Assembly (NCBI GenBank): GCA_018897155.1
Contig: JAHILE010000046.1
Span: forward strand, 1-54,286
Reading direction: 5' to 3'
DNA from: Nanoarchaeota archaeon
GTDB lineage: Archaea > EX4484-52 > LFW-46
Length of the DNA: 54,286 nucleotides
The position numbers and the translations under genes were made by a program. Below, in pieces: positions 6,163 to 16,341 of this stretch. Position 1 is the stretch's first letter. Each line of letters opens with the position of its first letter. Under the pieces are notes generated by a model. That model had not been told where the DNA came from. It saw only the letters and a program-made list of their open reading frames with translations, and ran no database searches.

Positions 6163-7197
6163 TCAATTTAATTTTTCTTTAAACGCATCCACAATATTCT
6201 GATTCCGGTAGTGATGCATAAAATCGGCAATTTGATTTTCATTCAGGCCTCTTCTTTTTGCTTCGGCTTCAAGCTCTCCGTAAAGCCCAAAATCAGCAAT
6301 TCCTGAAGGCGGATTCTCGCTTGATTTCTCCTCTGCTGCATGCGGCGCAAAATCGCTTGCAAGATAGACTCGATTGTATAATCCGTCATTCTTAGAAAGA
6401 TTGAACAAAAAATCAAGCAATTCTTTTTGATTTGCGCTGTCTCTTATCGGAGGATTGCATTTGTGTTTTTTGGCATCCTCAACGCTCATTAGCTTCATAT
6501 GCTCTGTTGAGCGCAGAATGTGGTGCGGCGTAAGCTCAAAACCAATGTCAAATGTGCGCGCCTTATCATTAAGCGCGGTTCGTATCAGACTGATTGTCTC
6601 TGCATGCGAAACATGGCATATCTGGAGCCTGCCTTTAAATCCGGCATTTTTTGCGAATTCAATCTGTTTTTTCACAGAATCGTATTCCGCTTTTGCAGGG
6701 CGCGCATCAGCCCATGTCCACGGTTCGCACGAGTTGAATTTGTGCTTATGCAGCTTTATTATTTCCGGATGCTCGCAGTGCACTGCAAGAACGCCGGTGT
6801 AGCCTGCGTCCGAGAGTGCGCAGTATATTCTCCCCTGTTCTGCCTCGTTTTCTACTGCCAAGTTTCCGGTTGATTCTCCTGCAAAGAGCTTTAAGCCGAC
6901 TACATTTTTGTTTTCTTTTACAATCTGCACTGCTTTTTTTATCTGCTCTAAATCAGAAGTCAGTCCGACATAAAGGCGGTAATTTTCAGAAATTCCGCGT
7001 TTTTCAGCAAGATTAATGCGCTCCTGGACTCTTTCGCGCGTGGTGACCGGCCTTGGCAGATTCGGCATATCAAAAAAAAGCCCGATGCCTGCTTTTTTGC
7101 CCTGAGCGACAACATCCGCCATTGTCGCCTTGTGCGCCCATTCCTCGTCGCGCATGTGGACGTGCGGGTCGATGTAGTATGATGGTTTCGAGTTCAT
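6163..7197 (-). CDS. pyrC: dihydroorotase
   Basis: Zinc amidohydrolase closing carbamoyl-aspartate to dihydroorotate, third step of de novo pyrimidine synthesis. Metal ligands are visible: DPHVHMRDEE with HxH at residues 12-14, KLFAGES near 113 (possible carboxylated Lys), VHCEHPE near 148, QICHVSHAET near 207, and ASDFAPHAAEEK near 287. Length 344 aa. It is the last gene of pyrD-pyrK-pyrC, with a 3-base gap after pyrK. Aspartate carbamoyltransferase and carbamoyl-phosphate synthase genes are not in this window. Confidence 0.93.
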   Translation of the reverse strand: MNSKPSYYIDPHVHMRDEEWAHKATMADVVAQGKKAGIGLFFDMPNLPRPVTTRERVQERINLAEKRGISENYRLYVGLTSDLEQIKKAVQIVKENKNVVGLKLFAGESTGNLAVENEAEQGRIYCALSDAGYTGVLAVHCEHPEIIKLHKHKFNSCEPWTWADARPAKAEYDSVKKQIEFAKNAGFKGRLQICHVSHAETISLIRTALNDKARTFDIGFELTPHHILRSTEHMKLMSVEDAKKHKCNPPIRDSANQKELLDFLFNLSKNDGLYNRVYLASDFAPHAAEEKSSENPPSGIADFGLYGELEAEAKRRGLNENQIADFMHHYRNQNIVDAFKEKLN

Positions 7198-7200
7198 AAA

Positions 7201-7986
7201 TTACGCCTTCACTCTTCTTCCTGCCTTGTCAAGTTTTTCAGTTCCAAACGCGCTTAGCTCTTTCAGTTCGCTTGACGCCATGACATTTTTCTTGCAAATT
7301 CTTACGCTTCCGCACGCGCATGAGCCGCAGATTCCGATGCCGCATTTCATATAACGCTCAAGAGAAGCCTGCATCGGCACATTGTTTTTTTCGCATATTG
7401 CAAGAAGCTTGAACATCATAATTTCAGGCCCGCATGTGTATACGCAGTCGTATTTGTTTTTTCCGAGCATTTCATCGGCGATTCCTGTTACAAATCCTTT
7501 TACTCCGGCTGAGCCGTCGTCTGTGGCTATCGATACGTTCGTTGCCTTTTCCAGCCTATCTTTGAAAAGCAATTTATCCGCTGACCTTGCCCCTAGTATC
7601 GCGTCGATTTTTATCTCCTTTTTCGCGGCGTTCTCTGCCAGAAGCGCGAGAGGGATTGTTCCCCTGCCGCCGCATACAAGCAGGATGTTTTTCCCGGTGA
7701 TTTCAAAGCCGTTTCCATACGGACCCCTTATGCCTATATGGTCGCCGATTTTTGAGTCGTATAACGCGCGAGTTCCATCTCCAACAGCTTCGACGGTTAT
7801 GCCAAAAGTGCCGTCAGAATCAGAAGTATACGATGCTGCTAGTGGAAATTCATCTACTCCTGGCACCCAGACCATGAAAAATTGTCCGGGTTGTGCTTGC
7901 GCCAATTTTTCACTCTCGAAGAAAAAGCTTCTGCAGTCTTTTGTCTCGTCAACAATCTTTTCGATTTGCAGCGTTGGGTTTTTCAT
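7201..7986 (-). CDS. pyrK: dihydroorotate dehydrogenase, electron-transfer subunit
   Basis: FAD and [2Fe-2S] subunit that passes electrons from class 1B dihydroorotate dehydrogenase to NAD+. It has an FAD-binding beta barrel (GQFFMVWVPG near residue 35, PLAASY), a nucleotide-binding domain beginning near NILLVCGGRGTIPL (100), and a C-terminal cysteine cluster CGIGICGSCACG...C near 217-233. Its start overlaps the pyrD stop by 4 bases, indicating translational coupling. Length 261 aa is typical. Confidence 0.95.
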   Translation of the reverse strand: MKNPTLQIEKIVDETKDCRSFFFESEKLAQAQPGQFFMVWVPGVDEFPLAASYTSDSDGTFGITVEAVGDGTRALYDSKIGDHIGIRGPYGNGFEITGKNILLVCGGRGTIPLALLAENAAKKEIKIDAILGARSADKLLFKDRLEKATNVSIATDDGSAGVKGFVTGIADEMLGKNKYDCVYTCGPEIMMFKLLAICEKNNVPMQASLERYMKCGIGICGSCACGSVRICKKNVMASSELKELSAFGTEKLDKAGRRVKA

Positions 7987-8894
7987 TTTAGAGCAATCCC
8001 CCGTATTTCTTCGAGATTTTTATGCCCTGAATCTTCCAGATATTTCTGTATTTCTGAGTTGATTTTTTTGAATGCTTCTAAATCATGATGCATAATCGAG
8101 GTTCCCACCCCGACAGCAGTTGCACCTGCCATTATAAACTCCAGGGCATCTTTCCCGCTGTAAATTCCTCCGGTGCCAATAATCGGCAGCGTCGTGTTTT
8201 TTGCAATTTGGTAAACTGCTCTTAATGCTATCGGTTTTATTGCAGGCCCGCTGACGCCTCCTTCTTTATTTGAGAGAACGGGCCTTCCTGTATGCACATC
8301 TATCAGCATTCCGGGCCCAACAGAATTCGAGCAGGTGATCATATCAGCGCCCGCAGCTTCCACAATTTTTGCGATTTCCGCAATCTTGAATTCTGCCGTC
8401 AGCTTGATTATCACCGGCACAGAAACATTTTTCTTGACAGCTCCGACAACGCTTCTTGCAAGTTCTCTATTATATTGAATATTCGCTCCAAGCCCCGCTT
8501 CTGCATGAGGGCATGAGAAATTGAGTTCCAGCGCATCCGCGCCGGCATCTTCACAGCATTGGGCGACTTTAATGAACTCGTCTGTGTCTTTGCCGCCGAC
8601 GCTCGCAATCAATAAAATGTTTGCCGCCTTTGCAATGCGTATCTCTTTTGCGCTTTCTTCAATACCGGGGCATGGAAGGCCGATACAATTCAAGAGGCCG
8701 TGTTCATATTCAGCCACAACAGGGCTTGTGTTCCCGTCCCTTTGCTCAAGAAATATGGTTTTTGTCGTTACTGCTCCTGCTCCGGCATTTGCGACATTTA
8801 TGAGTAATTCTCCGGTAACGCCAAGAATTCCTGATGCAAGAATAACAGGGCTCTTCAGGCGCATGTTTTTCAGCGTTACTGACATGTCGGGCAT
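7983..8894 (-). CDS. pyrD: dihydroorotate dehydrogenase, catalytic subunit (class 1B)
   Basis: FMN TIM-barrel enzyme oxidising dihydroorotate to orotate. It shows SPVILASGILG near residue 14, the active-site cysteine loop ALELNFSCPHAE near 126-137, a Lys in VIIKLTAEF near 165, and the phosphate-binding GTGGIYSGKDALEF near 240. The Cys base and the linked pyrK identify the NAD-dependent 1B class. First gene of a pyrD-pyrK-pyrC operon, with a TATA box about 23 bases before the ATG. Confidence 0.95.
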   Translation of the reverse strand: MPDMSVTLKNMRLKSPVILASGILGVTGELLINVANAGAGAVTTKTIFLEQRDGNTSPVVAEYEHGLLNCIGLPCPGIEESAKEIRIAKAANILLIASVGGKDTDEFIKVAQCCEDAGADALELNFSCPHAEAGLGANIQYNRELARSVVGAVKKNVSVPVIIKLTAEFKIAEIAKIVEAAGADMITCSNSVGPGMLIDVHTGRPVLSNKEGGVSGPAIKPIALRAVYQIAKNTTLPIIGTGGIYSGKDALEFIMAGATAVGVGTSIMHHDLEAFKKINSEIQKYLEDSGHKNLEEIRGIALK

Positions 8895-9611: not shown

Positions 9612-10256
9612 TTACTCAAACCCCATTTTCTTTCCCCAGTCCGCAGGACTTTTATTCCACTCAAGAATTCGCGCGATTTCTTCCTGCGGTATGTAATTCA
9701 ATTTGCCTGCAACCTGGACCAATGTGCTGAAATTTGAAAGTGTGACCGGAGTGCAGTTTGCCTGTGCGAAGTTGTTTTTCGCGCGCTCCATCTCATAAGT
9801 TATTATTGCAATGGCATGAGTCACTATCCCTCCGGCTCCACGCACTGCAGAAACAGCGTCTATTATGCTGCCGCCGGTTGATATCAGGTCTTCTACAATG
9901 AGAACTTTTTGCCCGCTTTTGAGCCTGCCTTCAATAGTGTTGTTTTTCCCGTGTTCCTTTGCGCTTGACCTGATGTATATCATGGGCTTTTTCATCGCAT
10001 CTGCGATCCATGCCGCGTGGGGAATGCCGGCAGTAGCAACGCCGCCGACAACATCGAAATCGACGCCATTTTCTTTTATTGTTTGCATGAAGTATTCAAC
10101 TATTTTTTCTCTTTTGGCGACATCTGAAATTATAATCCTGTTGTCGCAGTAAATCGGGCTGAGTATGCCGGATGCAAACCTGTACGGCTTTTGCGGGCTT
10201 AAAGTGACTGCGTTTATCTCAAGCAATATTTTTGCAACATCTTCTGCGATTGTCAT
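9612..10256 (-). CDS. pyrE: orotate phosphoribosyltransferase
   Basis: Type I phosphoribosyltransferase joining orotate to PRPP to give OMP. The PRPP loop VLIVEDLISTGGSI lies near residues 108-121; the orotate-binding N-terminal part has KPYRFASGILSPIYCDNR near 23-40, and the flexible loop has IRSSAKEHGKNN near 93. Length 214 aa is usual. It lies 27 bases downstream of pyrF on the same strand, so pyrF-pyrE is a likely operon for the last two steps to UMP. Confidence 0.95.
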   Translation of the reverse strand: MTIAEDVAKILLEINAVTLSPQKPYRFASGILSPIYCDNRIIISDVAKREKIVEYFMQTIKENGVDFDVVGGVATAGIPHAAWIADAMKKPMIYIRSSAKEHGKNNTIEGRLKSGQKVLIVEDLISTGGSIIDAVSAVRGAGGIVTHAIAIITYEMERAKNNFAQANCTPVTLSNFSTLVQVAGKLNYIPQEEIARILEWNKSPADWGKKMGFE

Positions 10257-10283
10257 ATGATTACCATTTATCCAAAATTAAAA

Positions 10284-11105
10284 TTATGCGCGTATTCTTT
10301 TCAGATACGCATTCCATCCGGCATCCCGGTATTCTTTTGCCATTTCTTTCGGATTGCCAGAGCCGTAAATGCCGCGCCCGACAATTATCGCATCGCTTCC
10401 AGCAAGCACGGCATCCTCGGGAGTTGCGTATTTTTGCCCGAGTTTATCGCCCTTGCTTTCCAGCTGCACTCCTGGCGTAAGTATCGCATGCCCTTCAAAT
10501 GAAATGGATGAAAGTTTTTGCAGTTCGCAAGGATCGCTTCCTGTTCCGATATATCCTGCAATCGCATCCTTTTTCGTATTTGCTATCTGGACGCATTTTT
10601 TTGTATATTCTCCTTGCGCAAAAGTTCCCTCGCTTGACATCTGCGCAAGCACCAGGACTCCTCTTTCAATCCCGTCATTTTTTTCTTTTGCAACGTTCCA
10701 GATGGCATCAATTATCGCAGGGCCCGGAACAAGGTGCACATTGACAATGTGCGCCCAGTCTGCAATCTTGTACATTCCGCCGGAATACTGCATTCTTACT
10801 GTATTTCCAATGTCTGCAAACTTTCTGTCCTCGAAAATTATGAAGTTGTGCTTTTTAGAAATCGCGATAAGTTCCTGTATAACTTCAGGAGAAAAATTAT
10901 TCCATATGTCAACGTGCGTCTTAAAGACAGCAATATCTGCTCCAAGAAGTTCTGCAAGCTCAAGAATTTCGTTTGCATCAGTATGGTCTGCAGCAATCGC
11001 AAGGTTTGTTTTTTTCTTTGCCATCAGATTGAAAAGATTTCGGGCTGCCGGGTTAACCGCCATTTTAGCCCTTTCTTCGTAAGTGAGTTTCAGCTGCGAA
11101 TCCAT
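10284..11105 (-). CDS. pyrF: orotidine 5'-phosphate decarboxylase, eukaryotic (URA3) type
   Basis: Decarboxylates OMP to UMP. The active-site run FEDRKFADIGNTVRMQYS (near residues 95-112) is the signature of eukaryotic URA3/UMPS enzymes; most archaea have a DxKxxDIPxT form in a protein of about 210-230 aa. Other URA3-like landmarks follow in order: TYEERA at the N-terminus, LFNLMAKKKTNL near 25, FKTHVDI near 60, GEYTKKCVQIA near 165, LTPGVQLESKGDKLGQKY near 210-227, IIVGRGIYG near 240, and YRDAGWNAYLKR at the C-terminus. Length 273 aa also fits URA3. Acquisition from a eukaryote-like source, or an ancient shared form, is inferred. Confidence 0.93.
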   Translation of the reverse strand: MDSQLKLTYEERAKMAVNPAARNLFNLMAKKKTNLAIAADHTDANEILELAELLGADIAVFKTHVDIWNNFSPEVIQELIAISKKHNFIIFEDRKFADIGNTVRMQYSGGMYKIADWAHIVNVHLVPGPAIIDAIWNVAKEKNDGIERGVLVLAQMSSEGTFAQGEYTKKCVQIANTKKDAIAGYIGTGSDPCELQKLSSISFEGHAILTPGVQLESKGDKLGQKYATPEDAVLAGSDAIIVGRGIYGSGNPKEMAKEYRDAGWNAYLKRIRA

Positions 11106-11224: not shown

Positions 11225-12142
11225 ATGTTTCTAATTCCCGGTTCGAATTCGCGCGCATTGGCAGAAAAAATTTCTTCTTTGTCAAATGTACCTATGGCCA
11301 AGGCTTCGTTAAAAAAATTTCCCGACGGCGAGAATTACATACGCATTGATTCGGATTTATCAGGCCGTGATGTTTTTCTCGTTGCATCAATGTTTCCGGA
11401 CCAGAATAGCTCTCTCATGGAATTTTTGTTTTTGGCAGACGCCTGCCGTGATTGCGGCGCGAAAAAGATAACTGCGATAATTCCGTATTTTGCATACGGA
11501 AGGCAGGATAAGCAGTTCCAGAAGGGAGAAGCACTGTCACTAAAAACCCTTGCAGGACTGTTTAAGGCAGTCGGAATACAGAAGATAATTACGCTCGAGT
11601 CGCATTTTCACAGAAAGCCGGAAAATTTCGATTTTTTCGGCATTCCGGCAACAAATATTTCAGCAGGCAAGGCATTGCTTGAGGATATAAGAAAAAACAT
11701 TTGCACTGATTATATGGTAATCGGCCCGGATATTGAGTCAGGCAAGACAGTCGAGTTTGCCACAGGCAAAAAAACCGTTTTTGAAAAGGTAAAGATATGC
11801 CCTGAATGCAAAAAGCCCGCAATAGACTGCAAATGCGGCGGGGAACGCAAACGATATGAGGTAAAGGAACTTAAAAGCGAAGCCGATTTTCGCGGCAAGA
11901 ATGTTGTCATACTTGATGATATGATTGCATCCGGAAGCACAATGATTAAGGCGGCGGAAAAGGTGCGCGCGCAGGGGGCGAAAAAAGTAATCTGCGCGGC
12001 AACACATGGATTATTCATCGGAAATTCCCTCAAAGTTTTGCAGGAAAAATCGGATTATCTCATAGTCACAGACACAATAGAAACTCCAGTAAGCGCGATT
12101 TCTGTTGCGGATTTGATTGCAGAGGAGATAAAACAAAAATAA
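11225..12142 (+). CDS. prs: ribose-phosphate pyrophosphokinase with a four-cysteine insert
   Basis: Makes PRPP from ribose-5-P and ATP, feeding pyrE across the divergent promoter. Motifs: KFPDGENYIRI near residue 35, AIIPYFAYGRQDKQF near 85-99, ESHFHRKPENFDFFGIPA near 123-140, and the PRPP-binding VVILDDMIASGSTM near 228-241. Inserted ahead of that loop is a segment with C192, C195, C202 and C204 (CPECKKPAIDCKCGG), a plausible small zinc knuckle that accounts for about 20 extra residues over the usual 285. Such an insert near the catalytic flexible loop is not something I know from characterised enzymes. Confidence 0.92.
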   Translation: MFLIPGSNSRALAEKISSLSNVPMAKASLKKFPDGENYIRIDSDLSGRDVFLVASMFPDQNSSLMEFLFLADACRDCGAKKITAIIPYFAYGRQDKQFQKGEALSLKTLAGLFKAVGIQKIITLESHFHRKPENFDFFGIPATNISAGKALLEDIRKNICTDYMVIGPDIESGKTVEFATGKKTVFEKVKICPECKKPAIDCKCGGERKRYEVKELKSEADFRGKNVVILDDMIASGSTMIKAAEKVRAQGAKKVICAATHGLFIGNSLKVLQEKSDYLIVTDTIETPVSAISVADLIAEEIKQK

Positions 12143-12218
12143 TTTGTGCCGAATATGCAACCGCGCATTTTTTAAATTCACTGATTAAATAAACTACTTG
12201 GATGAATTGGTCATTTTT

Positions 12219-14798
12219 ATGGCAGAACATCACTTCAAATTTATTGAAAAAGGCAACTTGGGTTTGATCGGCCTGGGCGTAATGGGTCAAAACTTAGTGC
12301 TGAATCTGGAAAGCAGGGGATTCTCAGTTGCAGTTTATAACCGCACGGTTTCTGATACAGAAGCGTTTATCGCAGGAAAAGCAAAGGGCAAAAAAATCCT
12401 CGGCGCGAAAACGCTCGAGGAATTCGCAAAAAAGCTCGAGACTCCAAGAAAAATACTTCTTATGGTAACTGCTGGCGACCCGGTGGACGCCGTGATTAAT
12501 CAGCTTTTACTTCATCTAAGCGAAGGCGACATCGTAATCGACGGAGGAAATTCATTTTTCAAAGACACCATTCGAAGGACAAAGGCACTTGTTGAGAAAA
12601 AAATCCACTTTATAGGCATGGGAATTTCAGGAGGGGAAAAAGGCGCATTGATTGGGCCTTCTATTATGGCTGGCGGCTCGGAGTATTCCTGGAAGCACAT
12701 AAAGCCGCTCTTCGAAACAATTGCTGCCAAAGCGTTTGACGGCTCGCCGTGCTGCGCGCATATCGGAGGAGATGGTGCGGGTCACTATGTCAAGATGGTG
12801 CATAACGGCATAGAATATGCGGACATGCAATTGATCGGCGAGGCATACCAGCTGCTAAAAGAGGGCGCGGGACTGACAAATGAAGAAATGAGCGATATTT
12901 TTGCAGAATGGAATAAAGGCGAATTGAATTCTTATCTTATAGAAATCACTTCGGCAATACTGAAAAAGAAAGACGAAGAAATCGGAAAGTACATAATTGA
13001 TTTGATTCTTGATGAAGCAGGGCAGAAAGGAACCGGAAAATGGGCTTCGCAAAGCAGTTTGGATATCGGCGTTCCGGCATACAACCTGAATATGGCGGTT
13101 CTATTGAGATACATGTCCACTTCAAACAAAGAAAGAGAAAGCGCAAGCAAAATGCTGTCCGGACCAAAAATCAAAACGCGAAAAGACAAGGAAACTTTTG
13201 CAAAAGAAGTGCATGACGCGCTTTATGCATCAAAACTATGCGCTTATGCGCAGGGGTTTTCATTGATGGCTGCCGCATCCAAAGAACATGGCTGGAATCT
13301 GAATTTTCCGGAAATCGCGCGAATCTGGGAAGGCGGATGCATTATCCGGGCAGAACTTCTCGAAAATATTCGCTCTGCATTTTCCGGCAATCAGAATATT
13401 TCCAACCTGCTCTTGGATGTGCATTTCCGGGAAAAAATATCCGACCTTCAAAGCAATTGGAGAAAACTAATAGCATTTGCTGTTGAAAACGGCATACCTG
13501 CAACAGGTATCTCATCTGCTTGCGCGTATTATGACAGCTACAGATGCGCAAGGCTACCTACAAATCTTATTCAGGCGCAGAGGGATTTTTTTGGCGCACA
13601 CACTTACAAACGAATCGACAAGGAAGGGAGCTTTCACACTGAATGGGAACCAAAAGAAGGCGACGATTCTGCCAAGTATAAACTCGGAGTTGTCGGAACA
13701 GGGCACTGGGTAAGAAGGCTGCATCCGTCAATAAAAAAAAGCAACAAATTATTGCTTCATAAGGGCGCAGGCGTCACACGGTTTGAAGATAAGAAAGCAG
13801 TTCTTGATGAATACAATATAACCAAGGACAGGTATTTTCAGATTCCATCTGTTGCAGAATTGCCTTTAGAATTCTTCAAGGATTTGGATGCTGTGCAAAT
13901 TGCAAGTTATAACCAATTCCACCACGAACAGACAAAGCAATCTCTTGCGCACGGAAAAGTCACAGTGGTTGAAAAAACATTTGCAACAGAGCGAAAAGGC
14001 TTTGATGATATGATTGATTTCATAAAAAAGAACGGCCATGAGAAAAAAGTATACCCTCATCTTCATTATCTTTCAAAAGCGCTCACAAGGAGCCTGGCTG
14101 AAATATTGCCCGAAGCGCTAAAAAACTACGGAAAAATAACTTGCGCAGCGGGTACATTTGTTGAGGAAACCCGTGAGGAAGATATGCGGAGAACGTGGCT
14201 CCTTAAGCCCGAGAACGGCGGCATATTCCTGGATTGGATACATCCTGTCGAGGTTTTGGCAAAGTTTTGCGGGGCGAATTTTTTGGAATGCAAAAGCATC
14301 GAACCATACATAGTCAATCCCGCATATGATACTGTCAATCCCACAGGGCTTTGCGCGAGATTTAAAATAAGCGGCAGTGCATTTACAAAAGATGCGTTCG
14401 CAACAATAAGGGTTGGAAAAGGCTTTCCTGCAGGAGTTACATACAAGTCCTTGAGGCTGTTTTTTGAGAAAAGCGTGGTTCTTGACCTTAATTACATCTC
14501 ATCCGAAGAAGAGTTCCAGACGGGCCTAAGAGGCGCATGGGAACTTGCGGAACTTGACGGCGATAAAAAGACCGTATTAAAGAAAGGAACCCCGGAAGGG
14601 CCCCTTTCATATGATTTTTTGGTAAAAAATATGCTGAATATGATTGACGGAAAAGAGCCGCCGCTTTCAATAGATGAAATCAAGAGAATCTATGAGCCGG
14701 TGTGGCAGGTTCAGGAAGCTGCAAAGGGCCTTGTATCCATTTCAGAAAAAAAATCGGTTGAGCAGTTTATAAAAGACGCTTTGGAGAAAGCCAAGTAA
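12219..14798 (+). CDS. 6-phosphogluconate dehydrogenase fused to a Gfo/Idh/MocA oxidoreductase
   Basis: An 859-aa fusion starting at the ATG at 12219 (an upstream in-frame TTG at 12198 adds 7 residues). Residues 1-480 are a full decarboxylating 6-phosphogluconate dehydrogenase: NADP loop GLGVMG at 18-23, VSGGE-like SGGEKGALIGPSIM at 137-150, catalytic GHYVKMVHNGIEY at 188-200, and the C-terminal QAQRDFFGAHTYKRIDKEG signature. From about 488 a second Rossmann enzyme begins (GVVGTGHW 490-497), with the Gfo/Idh/MocA lysine motif as EKTFATE at 585-591 and a GGIFLDWIHPVEVL motif with H675. The second domain could be a glucose-6-P or related sugar-phosphate dehydrogenase making the substrate of the first; that is inference. 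Four bases separate it from rpiB. Confidence 0.88.
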   Translation: MAEHHFKFIEKGNLGLIGLGVMGQNLVLNLESRGFSVAVYNRTVSDTEAFIAGKAKGKKILGAKTLEEFAKKLETPRKILLMVTAGDPVDAVINQLLLHLSEGDIVIDGGNSFFKDTIRRTKALVEKKIHFIGMGISGGEKGALIGPSIMAGGSEYSWKHIKPLFETIAAKAFDGSPCCAHIGGDGAGHYVKMVHNGIEYADMQLIGEAYQLLKEGAGLTNEEMSDIFAEWNKGELNSYLIEITSAILKKKDEEIGKYIIDLILDEAGQKGTGKWASQSSLDIGVPAYNLNMAVLLRYMSTSNKERESASKMLSGPKIKTRKDKETFAKEVHDALYASKLCAYAQGFSLMAAASKEHGWNLNFPEIARIWEGGCIIRAELLENIRSAFSGNQNISNLLLDVHFREKISDLQSNWRKLIAFAVENGIPATGISSACAYYDSYRCARLPTNLIQAQRDFFGAHTYKRIDKEGSFHTEWEPKEGDDSAKYKLGVVGTGHWVRRLHPSIKKSNKLLLHKGAGVTRFEDKKAVLDEYNITKDRYFQIPSVAELPLEFFKDLDAVQIASYNQFHHEQTKQSLAHGKVTVVEKTFATERKGFDDMIDFIKKNGHEKKVYPHLHYLSKALTRSLAEILPEALKNYGKITCAAGTFVEETREEDMRRTWLLKPENGGIFLDWIHPVEVLAKFCGANFLECKSIEPYIVNPAYDTVNPTGLCARFKISGSAFTKDAFATIRVGKGFPAGVTYKSLRLFFEKSVVLDLNYISSEEEFQTGLRGAWELAELDGDKKTVLKKGTPEGPLSYDFLVKNMLNMIDGKEPPLSIDEIKRIYEPVWQVQEAAKGLVSISEKKSVEQFIKDALEKAK

Positions 14799-14801
14799 GT
14801 T

Positions 14802-15338
14802 ATGCAGGCACAGTACGGGAAAATTATGCAAACTCAAAAAATCATGAAAATCAATGATTTTCAAGCTTTTCAGTCTCTTGCGAGCCTGAAAATCGCAATA
14901 GCATCAGACCACGCAGGGTTCCGGCTAAAGGAGATAATTAAAACTCATCTTTCTGCGCTCGGATATGAATACAAAGATTTTGGGACTGATAAGGAAGAGC
15001 CTGTGGACTATTCAGACTTTGCCTATCTTGTGAGCGAGGAGGTTTCTAAGAAGAATTTTGAGCGCGGCATTTTGATCTGCGGCACGGGGCTTGGAATGTG
15101 CATAGTTGCCAATAAACTGCAGGGTATACGTGCGGTTTCCTGCCATAACATAAAGACTGCAAAGCTCTCAAGAGAACATAATGATTCCAATATCCTGACG
15201 CTTGGCGGGCGAACGATGAATCCGGAAAGCGCGAAAAAAATCGTTTCTGTCTGGCTAACTGCTGAATTTGAAGGCGGAAGGCATGCAAGAAGAATTAATA
15301 AGATCAAGACAATTGAAGAGAATTCCATGAAATCATAA
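14802..15338 (+). CDS. rpiB: ribose-5-phosphate isomerase B
   Basis: Interconverts ribulose-5-P and ribose-5-P, the step between the preceding 6PGDH domain and prs. Signatures: IASDHAGF near residue 33-40, CGTGLGMCIVANKLQGIRAV near 91-110 with the active-site Cys, REHNDSNILTLGGR near 126, and FEGGRHARRINKI near 154. RpiB proteins normally begin right at the KIAIASDHAGF strand; here up to 29 extra residues precede it, and codons 15-23 are encoded by a hairpin repeat (14837-14870). True start may be the ATG at 14826 or 14844. Confidence 0.92.
   Translation: MQAQYGKIMQTQKIMKINDFQAFQSLASLKIAIASDHAGFRLKEIIKTHLSALGYEYKDFGTDKEEPVDYSDFAYLVSEEVSKKNFERGILICGTGLGMCIVANKLQGIRAVSCHNIKTAKLSREHNDSNILTLGGRTMNPESAKKIVSVWLTAEFEGGRHARRINKIKTIEENSMKS
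14837..14870 (-). repeat. AAGCTT/ATGAT hairpin inside the rpiB 5' end
   Basis: On the minus strand this reads AAAAGCTT, a TGAAAATCA/TGATTTTCA stem with a one-base centre (14845-14863), then TGATTTTT. It is one member of a family with constant flanks and variable stems, here contributing codons to the N-terminal extension of RpiB. Confidence 0.7.
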
Positions 15339-15854: not shown

Positions 15855-16301
15855 CTAAAACAACGTTTCCTGCATCTCTCGCGTTTTTTTCCATTGATTT
15901 CCTTTGCTGTTATCGATGTAGTTTTTTACAGCGTCTGCACTTACACTGCCAATGCTTCTGTAGAACACACCTCTGCTCCACAATCGCAGATATCTTTGTA
16001 AAGAAGGCATTTTATCTCTTATGTAATGAAAAGTACCGCCCTTTATCACAGCACATATTCTCAAAATCGACTTTCTTGGAGGGCAAGAGATAAAGAGATG
16101 CACATGGTCTGGCATCACTTCAAAAGTAAACAGGTCTATACAGTTGTTTTTGCAGACCTGTTTTATGCCTTCTTCGCACAATCTTTTCGTCGGTTCGTAT
16201 CTGAAAACCGGATATCTGGCTCTTGGTATGATGATTACATGATACCAATTTTGGCCTTTGCTGTGGCTACAGCTTTTTAAATCAGAGCTCACACGATTCA
16301 T
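15855..16301 (-). CDS. tnpA: IS200/IS605-family transposase TnpA (Y1 HUH)
   Basis: Single-strand transposase of about 148 aa. The HUH metal motif is in MPDHVHLFISCPP and the catalytic tyrosine is in AVKNYIDNSKGNQW near the C-terminus. I chose the ATG at 16301, preceded by GAGGTG six bases upstream; the open frame extends nine codons further. No TnpB is adjacent, so this is a solo IS200-like copy. Upstream are a 14-bp palindrome (GTATGAGCTCATAC, 16342-16355) and a GGCGCC-TTC-GGCGCC hairpin (16414-16428). The frame is intact. Confidence 0.9.
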   Translation of the reverse strand: MNRVSSDLKSCSHSKGQNWYHVIIIPRARYPVFRYEPTKRLCEEGIKQVCKNNCIDLFTFEVMPDHVHLFISCPPRKSILRICAVIKGGTFHYIRDKMPSLQRYLRLWSRGVFYRSIGSVSADAVKNYIDNSKGNQWKKTREMQETLF

Positions 16302-16341
16302 TTGTAACACCTCATATGCGTTTTTCACTGTTGGAAAACGT

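Follow-up and report, generated by a model that had tools for sequence, protein, structure and literature searches.

A Gfo/Idh/MocA-fold domain fused to archaeal 6-phosphogluconate dehydrogenase as a candidate glucose-6-phosphate dehydrogenase

The oxidative branch of the pentose phosphate pathway is not widespread in archaea, according to the excerpt of PMC11237513 cited here. An archaeal gene in which 6-phosphogluconate dehydrogenase (Gnd) continues in the same frame into a second domain, which we call D2, raises the question of what this second domain does and, in particular, whether it could provide Gnd with its substrate. The gene is located in a stretch of 54,286 nucleotides (the whole of which is referred to as the window) from a Nanoarchaeota archaeon, whose genome assembly (1.43 Mb, 62 contigs) has a completeness of 96%.

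The fusion gene and its second domain

The genes that bear on the question are the following (window coordinates, strand, assignment):

6163..8894, minus: dihydroorotase-like gene (below cut-off), dihydroorotate dehydrogenase electron-transfer subunit and pyrD (both above cut-off)
9612..11105, minus: pyrF and pyrE, divergent (TIGR01740 and TIGR00336 above cut-off)
11225..12142, plus: prs, ribose-phosphate diphosphokinase (PRPP synthase; TIGR01251, 253 bits versus cut-off 113)
12198..14798, plus: gnd-D2 fusion gene, an uninterrupted open frame of 866 codons from TTG
12249..13658, plus: Gnd half, 6-phosphogluconate dehydrogenase, fusion residues 18-487 (PRK09287, 715 bits versus cut-off 413; TIGR00873, 692 bits versus cut-off 427)
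13656..14795, plus: D2, Gfo/Idh/MocA fold, candidate glucose-6-phosphate dehydrogenase (judged by PF01408, fold, substrate-site residues and neighbourhoods)
14802..15338, plus: rpiB, ribose-5-phosphate isomerase B (TIGR01120, 168 bits versus cut-off 138.7)

An initial sequence-only reading of this locus had described a complete 6-phosphogluconate dehydrogenase joined in one frame to a Gfo/Idh/MocA domain, with prs before and rpiB after it, and this description holds: both domains are complete, and both flanking genes exceed their NCBIfam cut-offs. The frame may alternatively start at an in-frame ATG at 12219, which would give 859 aa. The Gnd half is of the long type and retains SGGEKGA, KMVHNGIEY and GAHTY, which we take to be the substrate-site motifs of 6-phosphogluconate dehydrogenase. 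A short linker (...HTEWEPKEGDDSAKYKLGVVG) leads to D2, which corresponds to fusion residues 487-866 (380 aa as used in searches). All three genes are on the plus strand, and only three bases separate the fusion stop codon (TAA, 14796-14798) from the first rpiB ATG at 14802; the RpiB domain starts ~30 residues into its frame, so a later start is possible. The divergent pyr genes pointed out in the same reading were also recovered, with the dihydroorotase-like gene being the one below cut-off. The contig is archaeal: it has genes for S4e and for RadB that exceed their NCBIfam cut-offs, as well as an apparent ribosomal protein cluster (identified by eye). The Gnd, D2 and RpiB matches are far above chance. 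The continuous frame, the family matches and the archaeal genes on the contig together rule out a chance frame or ordinary contamination.

Profile searches and structure modeling place D2 in the Gfo/Idh/MocA superfamily. PF01408, the N-terminal Rossmann domain, is matched by the window D2 with 34.5 bits (cut-off 24) and by all nine intact D2 sequences described below at E<=0.01; at the same threshold PF22725, the C-terminal alpha/beta domain, is matched by four of the nine. The window D2 reached no NCBIfam model at its cut-off (best match across the nine D2 sequences, E 3e-9), and its best solved-structure profile match is Zymomonas glucose-fructose oxidoreductase (E 3.4e-9). An AlphaFold2 model based on 28 sequences (pLDDT 76.3, pTM 0.81) matches glucose-fructose oxidoreductase over residues 3-380 (Z 28.2, 322 residues, rmsd 3.3 A), with the caveat that the 26 generic Gfo/Idh sequences in the underlying alignment bias the result toward this fold. 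An earlier model derived from two sequences was weak (pLDDT 57.6), and its fold search was set aside.

By profile, D2 belongs to no known family of glucose-6-phosphate dehydrogenase (G6PDH). At E<=0.01 none of the nine D2 sequences matched the Zwf families (PF00479/PF02781 or TIGR00871), an SDR Pfam domain or the Pfam luciferase-like TIM-barrel domain of F420-dependent G6PDH, the fold being that of Gfo/Idh. The possibility that D2 is a divergent Zwf orthologue was rejected at the family level, as no member showed a Zwf-family match. A Zwf chain was also absent from the 50 fold matches listed for the D2 model, which in itself excludes nothing.

Relatives of D2 and the genes around them

Searches of 33 other genomes of the host's phylum revealed no D2 at E<=1e-10. 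The first relative came from an Aenigmatarchaeota MAG (47% identity), and matches at E<=1e-10 came from eight of 156 Aenigmatarchaeota genomes; six of these matches are strong, and those in G089 and G158 (E 2e-14 and 8e-13) were classed as distant relatives outside the D2 counts. A profile search of 394 archaeal genomes at E<=1e-15 produced six genomes with a D2 match, including the host. Two genomes are present in both sets (G070 is G382 and G071 is G548, judged by identical coordinates). Overall, D2 is found in 10 genomes, namely the host and nine other archaeal genomes in which it is free-standing. In one of the nine (G382/G070) the gene is disrupted, being in two pieces and having an in-frame stop (L029:7673-8684), while the nearby gnd is still open; this copy was counted among the 10 genomes and left out of the alignment of nine intact D2 sequences (A3). 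No D2 relative was found in viral contigs; partial matches occurred in 11 plasmid records (best identity 31%), and two more were found in phages.

Among the genomes searched, the host was the only one with the gnd-D2 fusion. Its genus-mate G030 has no fusion, and neither D2 nor gnd was detected there at the thresholds used. In G418, which belongs to the same family as two D2 genomes, gnd is present and a D2 match is absent.

The association of D2 with gnd extends to the free-standing copies. In six of the nine relatives (G034, G074, G120, G122, G384 and G262) D2 directly adjoins or overlaps a gnd or gnd-like gene, in two more (G548 and G382) the distance is <=1.3 kb, and in G315 gnd is on other contigs. 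In G034 D2 comes first and gnd, which runs off the contig end, follows 3 bp later; the opposite order also occurs (e.g. G262), and Gnd of the long as well as of the short type is found beside D2. The varying order and the two Gnd types indicate that the pairing is not one inherited block. The weakest pairing is that of G074, for which the best model of the gnd-like gene is 2-hydroxy-3-oxopropionate reductase, below every cut-off shown. A gnd above the curated cut-off is present in eight of the 10 D2 genomes, the exceptions being G074 (divergent) and G034 (contig end).

Other genes of the host locus recur as well. The order in G120 is gnd-D2-rpiA-prs. In G122 gnd-D2 is followed by a TnpB-type gene and then by rpiA, a PF00215 (pyrF-like) gene, prs and a pyrE-looking phosphoribosyltransferase gene. 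In both genomes RpiA takes the place of the host's non-homologous RpiB. In G548 a long-type gnd is separated from D2 by a dihydroorotase-like gene that is 35% identical to that of the window, and a gene of the phosphoglucose isomerase type (PF10432) is located nearby. Around D2 the same functions recur in different orders and with different types of Gnd and Rpi. As the role suggested in the sequence-only reading requires, free-standing D2 adjoins gnd in other archaeal genomes and in two of them has rpiA and prs nearby.

Three side observations concern these loci. Mobile elements adjoin the D2 gene set in two genomes. In the window rpiB is closely followed by a transposase gene of the IS200 type (PF01797) at 15855-16328, and in G122 the gene between D2 and rpiA (L008:227-1369) is of the OrfB/TnpB type. 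The distant relative in G158 (L012:1312-2664) carries an N-terminal HPr domain (PF00381) in its reading frame and has the full DHYLYK motif. In G089 a single gene separates the distant relative (L011:1-1044) from a divergent gnd-like gene downstream of it (L037:1486-2430), so pairing with gnd may reach past the D2 family.

To see how D2 and Zwf are distributed, we defined gnd genomes by a TIGR00872 match at E<=1e-25 (19 of 394 and 8 of 156 genomes, 25 after removing the overlap); all 10 D2 genomes have such a match. Zwf (PF00479, E<=1e-5) was detected in 9 of 394 and 1 of 156 genomes. The gnd genomes include nine of these ten; the remaining one, G014, was excluded from the 25-genome count for lack of a gnd match. 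The 25 gnd genomes divide into 10 with D2, 9 with Zwf, 6 with neither and none with both; the hypergeometric P for zero overlap is 0.0024, with genomes treated as independent and their kinship ignored. The host genome has no PF00479 match and no full-length hexulose-phosphate synthase (HPS; the best TIGR03128 match is partial, 21 bits), as the idea put forward in the sequence-only reading requires. Across the D2 genomes TIGR03128 gives at most a partial match of ~25 bits.

The same reading had seen no lactonase gene, and indeed PF01182 (6-phosphogluconolactonase and its relatives) is absent from the whole host genome. In a survey of 27 genomes PF01182 was positive in all nine genomes with Zwf and gnd and in G014, and negative in all 10 D2 genomes, in the six with neither and in G030; the matches in G393 and G427 are weaker and lie on contigs other than those of zwf. 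The absence of PF01182 from the D2 genomes implies that D2 may make no lactone, or else that the lactonase differs. Separately, a cyclase-family gene is located beside gnd in three archaeal genomes (L044:835-1497, L051:870-1499 and L052:2421-3032; PF04199 in the first two, by eye in L052). One of these loci has an adjoining zwf; the other two have no zwf match but a ROK-type kinase gene (PF00480 in L052, by eye in L051). This candidate PF04199-type cyclase might be an unrecognised 6-phosphogluconolactonase. Another gene set was observed in G015:C17 (L039, L067), from the host's order, which has gnd, two PF01182 matches and zwf, the second lactonase apparently being in the zwf frame. Two different first-step systems thus occur within one order.

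Residues shared with the substrate site of Zwf

Whole-profile scores turned out to be non-specific as a sign of kinship with Zwf and were rejected for this use. D2 together with its two distant relatives scored 90% probability (E 1.9e-7) against 10 Zwf sequences in global mode, but values of 86-90% were reached only after these two members had been added. The nine D2 sequences alone scored 17.7% in local mode and were outscored by generic sets: six plasmid proteins (65.5%) and a nine-member viral cluster (57.8%) in local mode, and 44 pooled generic Gfo/Idh sequences (69.9%) in global mode.

Individual positions are more informative. The D2 motifs that align with the glucose-6-phosphate (G6P) site of human G6PD are as follows:

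13971..13985, plus: EKTFA, D2 K107 (fusion residue 593), aligned with EKPxG (K171)
14058..14078, plus: HLHYLSK, D2 H137, Y138 and K141, aligned with DHYLGK (H201, Y202, K205)
14154..14168, plus: TFVEE, D2 E170, aligned with E239
14232..14246, plus: DWIHP, D2 D193 and H196, aligned with D258 and the catalytic H263
14409..14423, plus: RVGKG, D2 K255, aligned with RTGK (K360)

The global-mode profile alignment joins the nine intact D2 sequences and the two distant relatives to 10 Zwf sequences (nine archaeal, including one from G014, and that of E. coli; the G504 Zwf, L064, was left out). Eleven of its columns are invariant and identical in the nine D2 and the 10 Zwf sequences. A residue-shift control gave a mean of 0.38 and a maximum of 3 such columns, although it overstates the significance because the alignment itself favours identities. 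Eight of the 10 G6P-site residues examined are identical and invariant (K171, H201, Y202, K205, E239, D258, H263 and K360), E239 being presumably a G6P-site residue of human G6PD. The other seven are named as such for the human enzyme in the cited excerpt of PMC11448927.

Among these eight residues, the counterparts of D2 H137 and K141 (His and Lys of HY..K), E170 and K255 (Lys of VxKG) were found in 1, 0, 0 and 0 of 44 generic Gfo/Idh sequences, respectively. The generic set started from 60 viral loci, reduced to 48 by dropping 12 apparent near-duplicates and to 42 by stop and length filters; 38 of the 42 and 6 plasmid proteins make up the 44, of which 26 entered alignment A5.

The two remaining positions differ. 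At the position of Asp200, which pairs with the catalytic His in Zwf, every one of the nine D2 sequences has Leu (Leu136), and both distant relatives have Asp. The position of Arg365, a phosphate contact in human G6PD, is variable in both groups (T/R/E/D/A in D2 and S/N/K/P/R/D in the 10 Zwf). No variation is seen across the nine D2 sequences at the nucleotide-site glycines, Asp193, His196 or the catalytic Lys107 of the EKP motif; the Pro of that motif is replaced by Thr, Ser or Ala.

D2 thus resembles two known groups in different ways. With Zwf it shares eight of the 10 active-site residues examined, at aligned places, and the partnership with gnd, which Zwf has in archaea without D2; it differs in length (~370 aa versus ~480), in having Leu for Asp200, in lacking a Zwf-family match and in occurring in genomes without the PF01182 lactonase. 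With glucose-fructose oxidoreductase and other Gfo/Idh/MocA proteins it shares the fold, the best solved-structure matches and PF01408; it differs in the four residues that are almost absent from the generic set. Known Gfo/Idh/MocA sugar dehydrogenases mostly act on unphosphorylated or nucleotide sugars.

Proposed role and its alternatives

D2 is most simply read as a glucose-6-phosphate dehydrogenase, as it has most of the Zwf G6P site and, in the genomes searched, occurs with Gnd and never with Zwf. Judged by the conserved residues and the archaeal gene neighbours, it very probably makes the substrate of Gnd from G6P. We consider it likely that the fusion protein combines two activities of the oxidative pentose phosphate pathway, with D2 as the predicted G6PDH and the Gnd half carrying out the subsequent decarboxylation. 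The suggestion that the fused domain is a non-orthologous G6PDH, already made from the sequence alone, gains support from the lack of zwf and of a full-length HPS in the host, the pairing with gnd, the mutual exclusion with Zwf among the gnd genomes and the eight of 10 shared residues. Points against it are Leu136 in place of Asp200, the Arg365 position, the replaced Pro of EKP, the missing PF01182 lactonase, the low whole-profile score of the nine D2 sequences, the imperfect gnd genes of G074 and G034, the broken D2 of G382, the gnd of G418 without D2, and the lack of the fusion in the genus-mate.

In the proposed mechanism D2 would oxidise G6P at C1 with NAD(P)+. H137, Y138 and K141, together with K255, would hold the phosphate end of the substrate, K107 would face the nicotinamide and O1, with H196 serving as the base. 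The resulting 6-phosphogluconolactone would be opened spontaneously or by another lactonase, after which the Gnd half would convert 6-phosphogluconate to ribulose-5-phosphate by decarboxylation. RpiB would then produce ribose-5-phosphate and Prs would produce PRPP, to be consumed by the products of the divergent pyr genes. We infer the substrate, product and cofactor of D2, the lactone step and any channelling.

The most serious alternative is that D2 is a sugar-phosphate dehydrogenase acting on another substrate or another carbon, linked to Gnd without supplying 6-phosphogluconate. G6P 3-dehydrogenase chemistry, as in NtdC, and a pentose-phosphate reductase are examples. The great substrate diversity of the superfamily, the lack of conservation of Asp200 and Arg365 and the missing PF01182 lactonase in all 10 D2 genomes speak for such a role. 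However, among the genomes searched D2 sits in those with gnd and without Zwf, the residues peculiar to it are shared with the G6P site of Zwf, and the rpi and prs neighbours point to ribose-5-phosphate supply; on balance we regard this alternative as unlikely. A non-catalytic or regulatory partner of Gnd, sensing a sugar phosphate or NADPH, would fit the loss of the catalytic-dyad Asp and the changed Pro of EKP. Such a role is quite improbable in view of the invariant nucleotide-site glycines, Lys107, Asp193 and His196, and of the free-standing D2 in nine other genomes, eight of them with an intact copy. Finally, an assembly or binning artefact, which the restriction of the fusion to one genome and the lack of D2 and gnd in its genus-mate might suggest, is most improbable of all given the unbroken 866-codon frame with two complete domains, the archaeal genes on the same contig and the adjoining gnd and D2 in other archaeal genomes.

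There are precedents for joining the two dehydrogenases and for a non-Zwf G6PDH in archaea. In archaeon G427 we found a canonical Zwf-Gnd fusion of 789 aa (L048:43-2412), with zwf N-terminal and a short-type gnd C-terminal. As in the host (with D2 as the candidate), both oxidative-branch dehydrogenases are on one polypeptide; in the host, however, a long-type Gnd is N-terminal and its partner is non-Zwf by profile. These two steps have thus been joined independently. The cited excerpt of PMC11237513 reports a G6pd-Pgd fusion from 60 assemblies of bacterial candidate phyla and, as a singleton, from Diapherotrites. Another archaeal G6PDH of this pathway that is not Zwf is the haloarchaeal azf product, which unlike D2 belongs to the SDR superfamily according to the excerpt of PMC8506132; three non-homologous described types of G6PDH are counted there. 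Among the open-access titles and abstract openings searched, none describes a Gfo/Idh-type G6PDH or a gnd-D2 fusion.

If the proposed activity is correct, D2 would be a new type of G6PDH, a central metabolic enzyme. It would close the gap of gnd without zwf in several small-genome archaea, whose supply of ribose, PRPP and NADPH could then be predicted from the genome. More tentatively, D2 is possibly a surviving relative of the stock ancestral to Zwf, one that replaces Zwf in scattered small-genome archaea without the usual lactonase and that in the host, through the fusion, would take G6P to ribulose-5-phosphate with two NAD(P)H. D2 may also throw light on the origin of Zwf within the Gfo/Idh/MocA superfamily.
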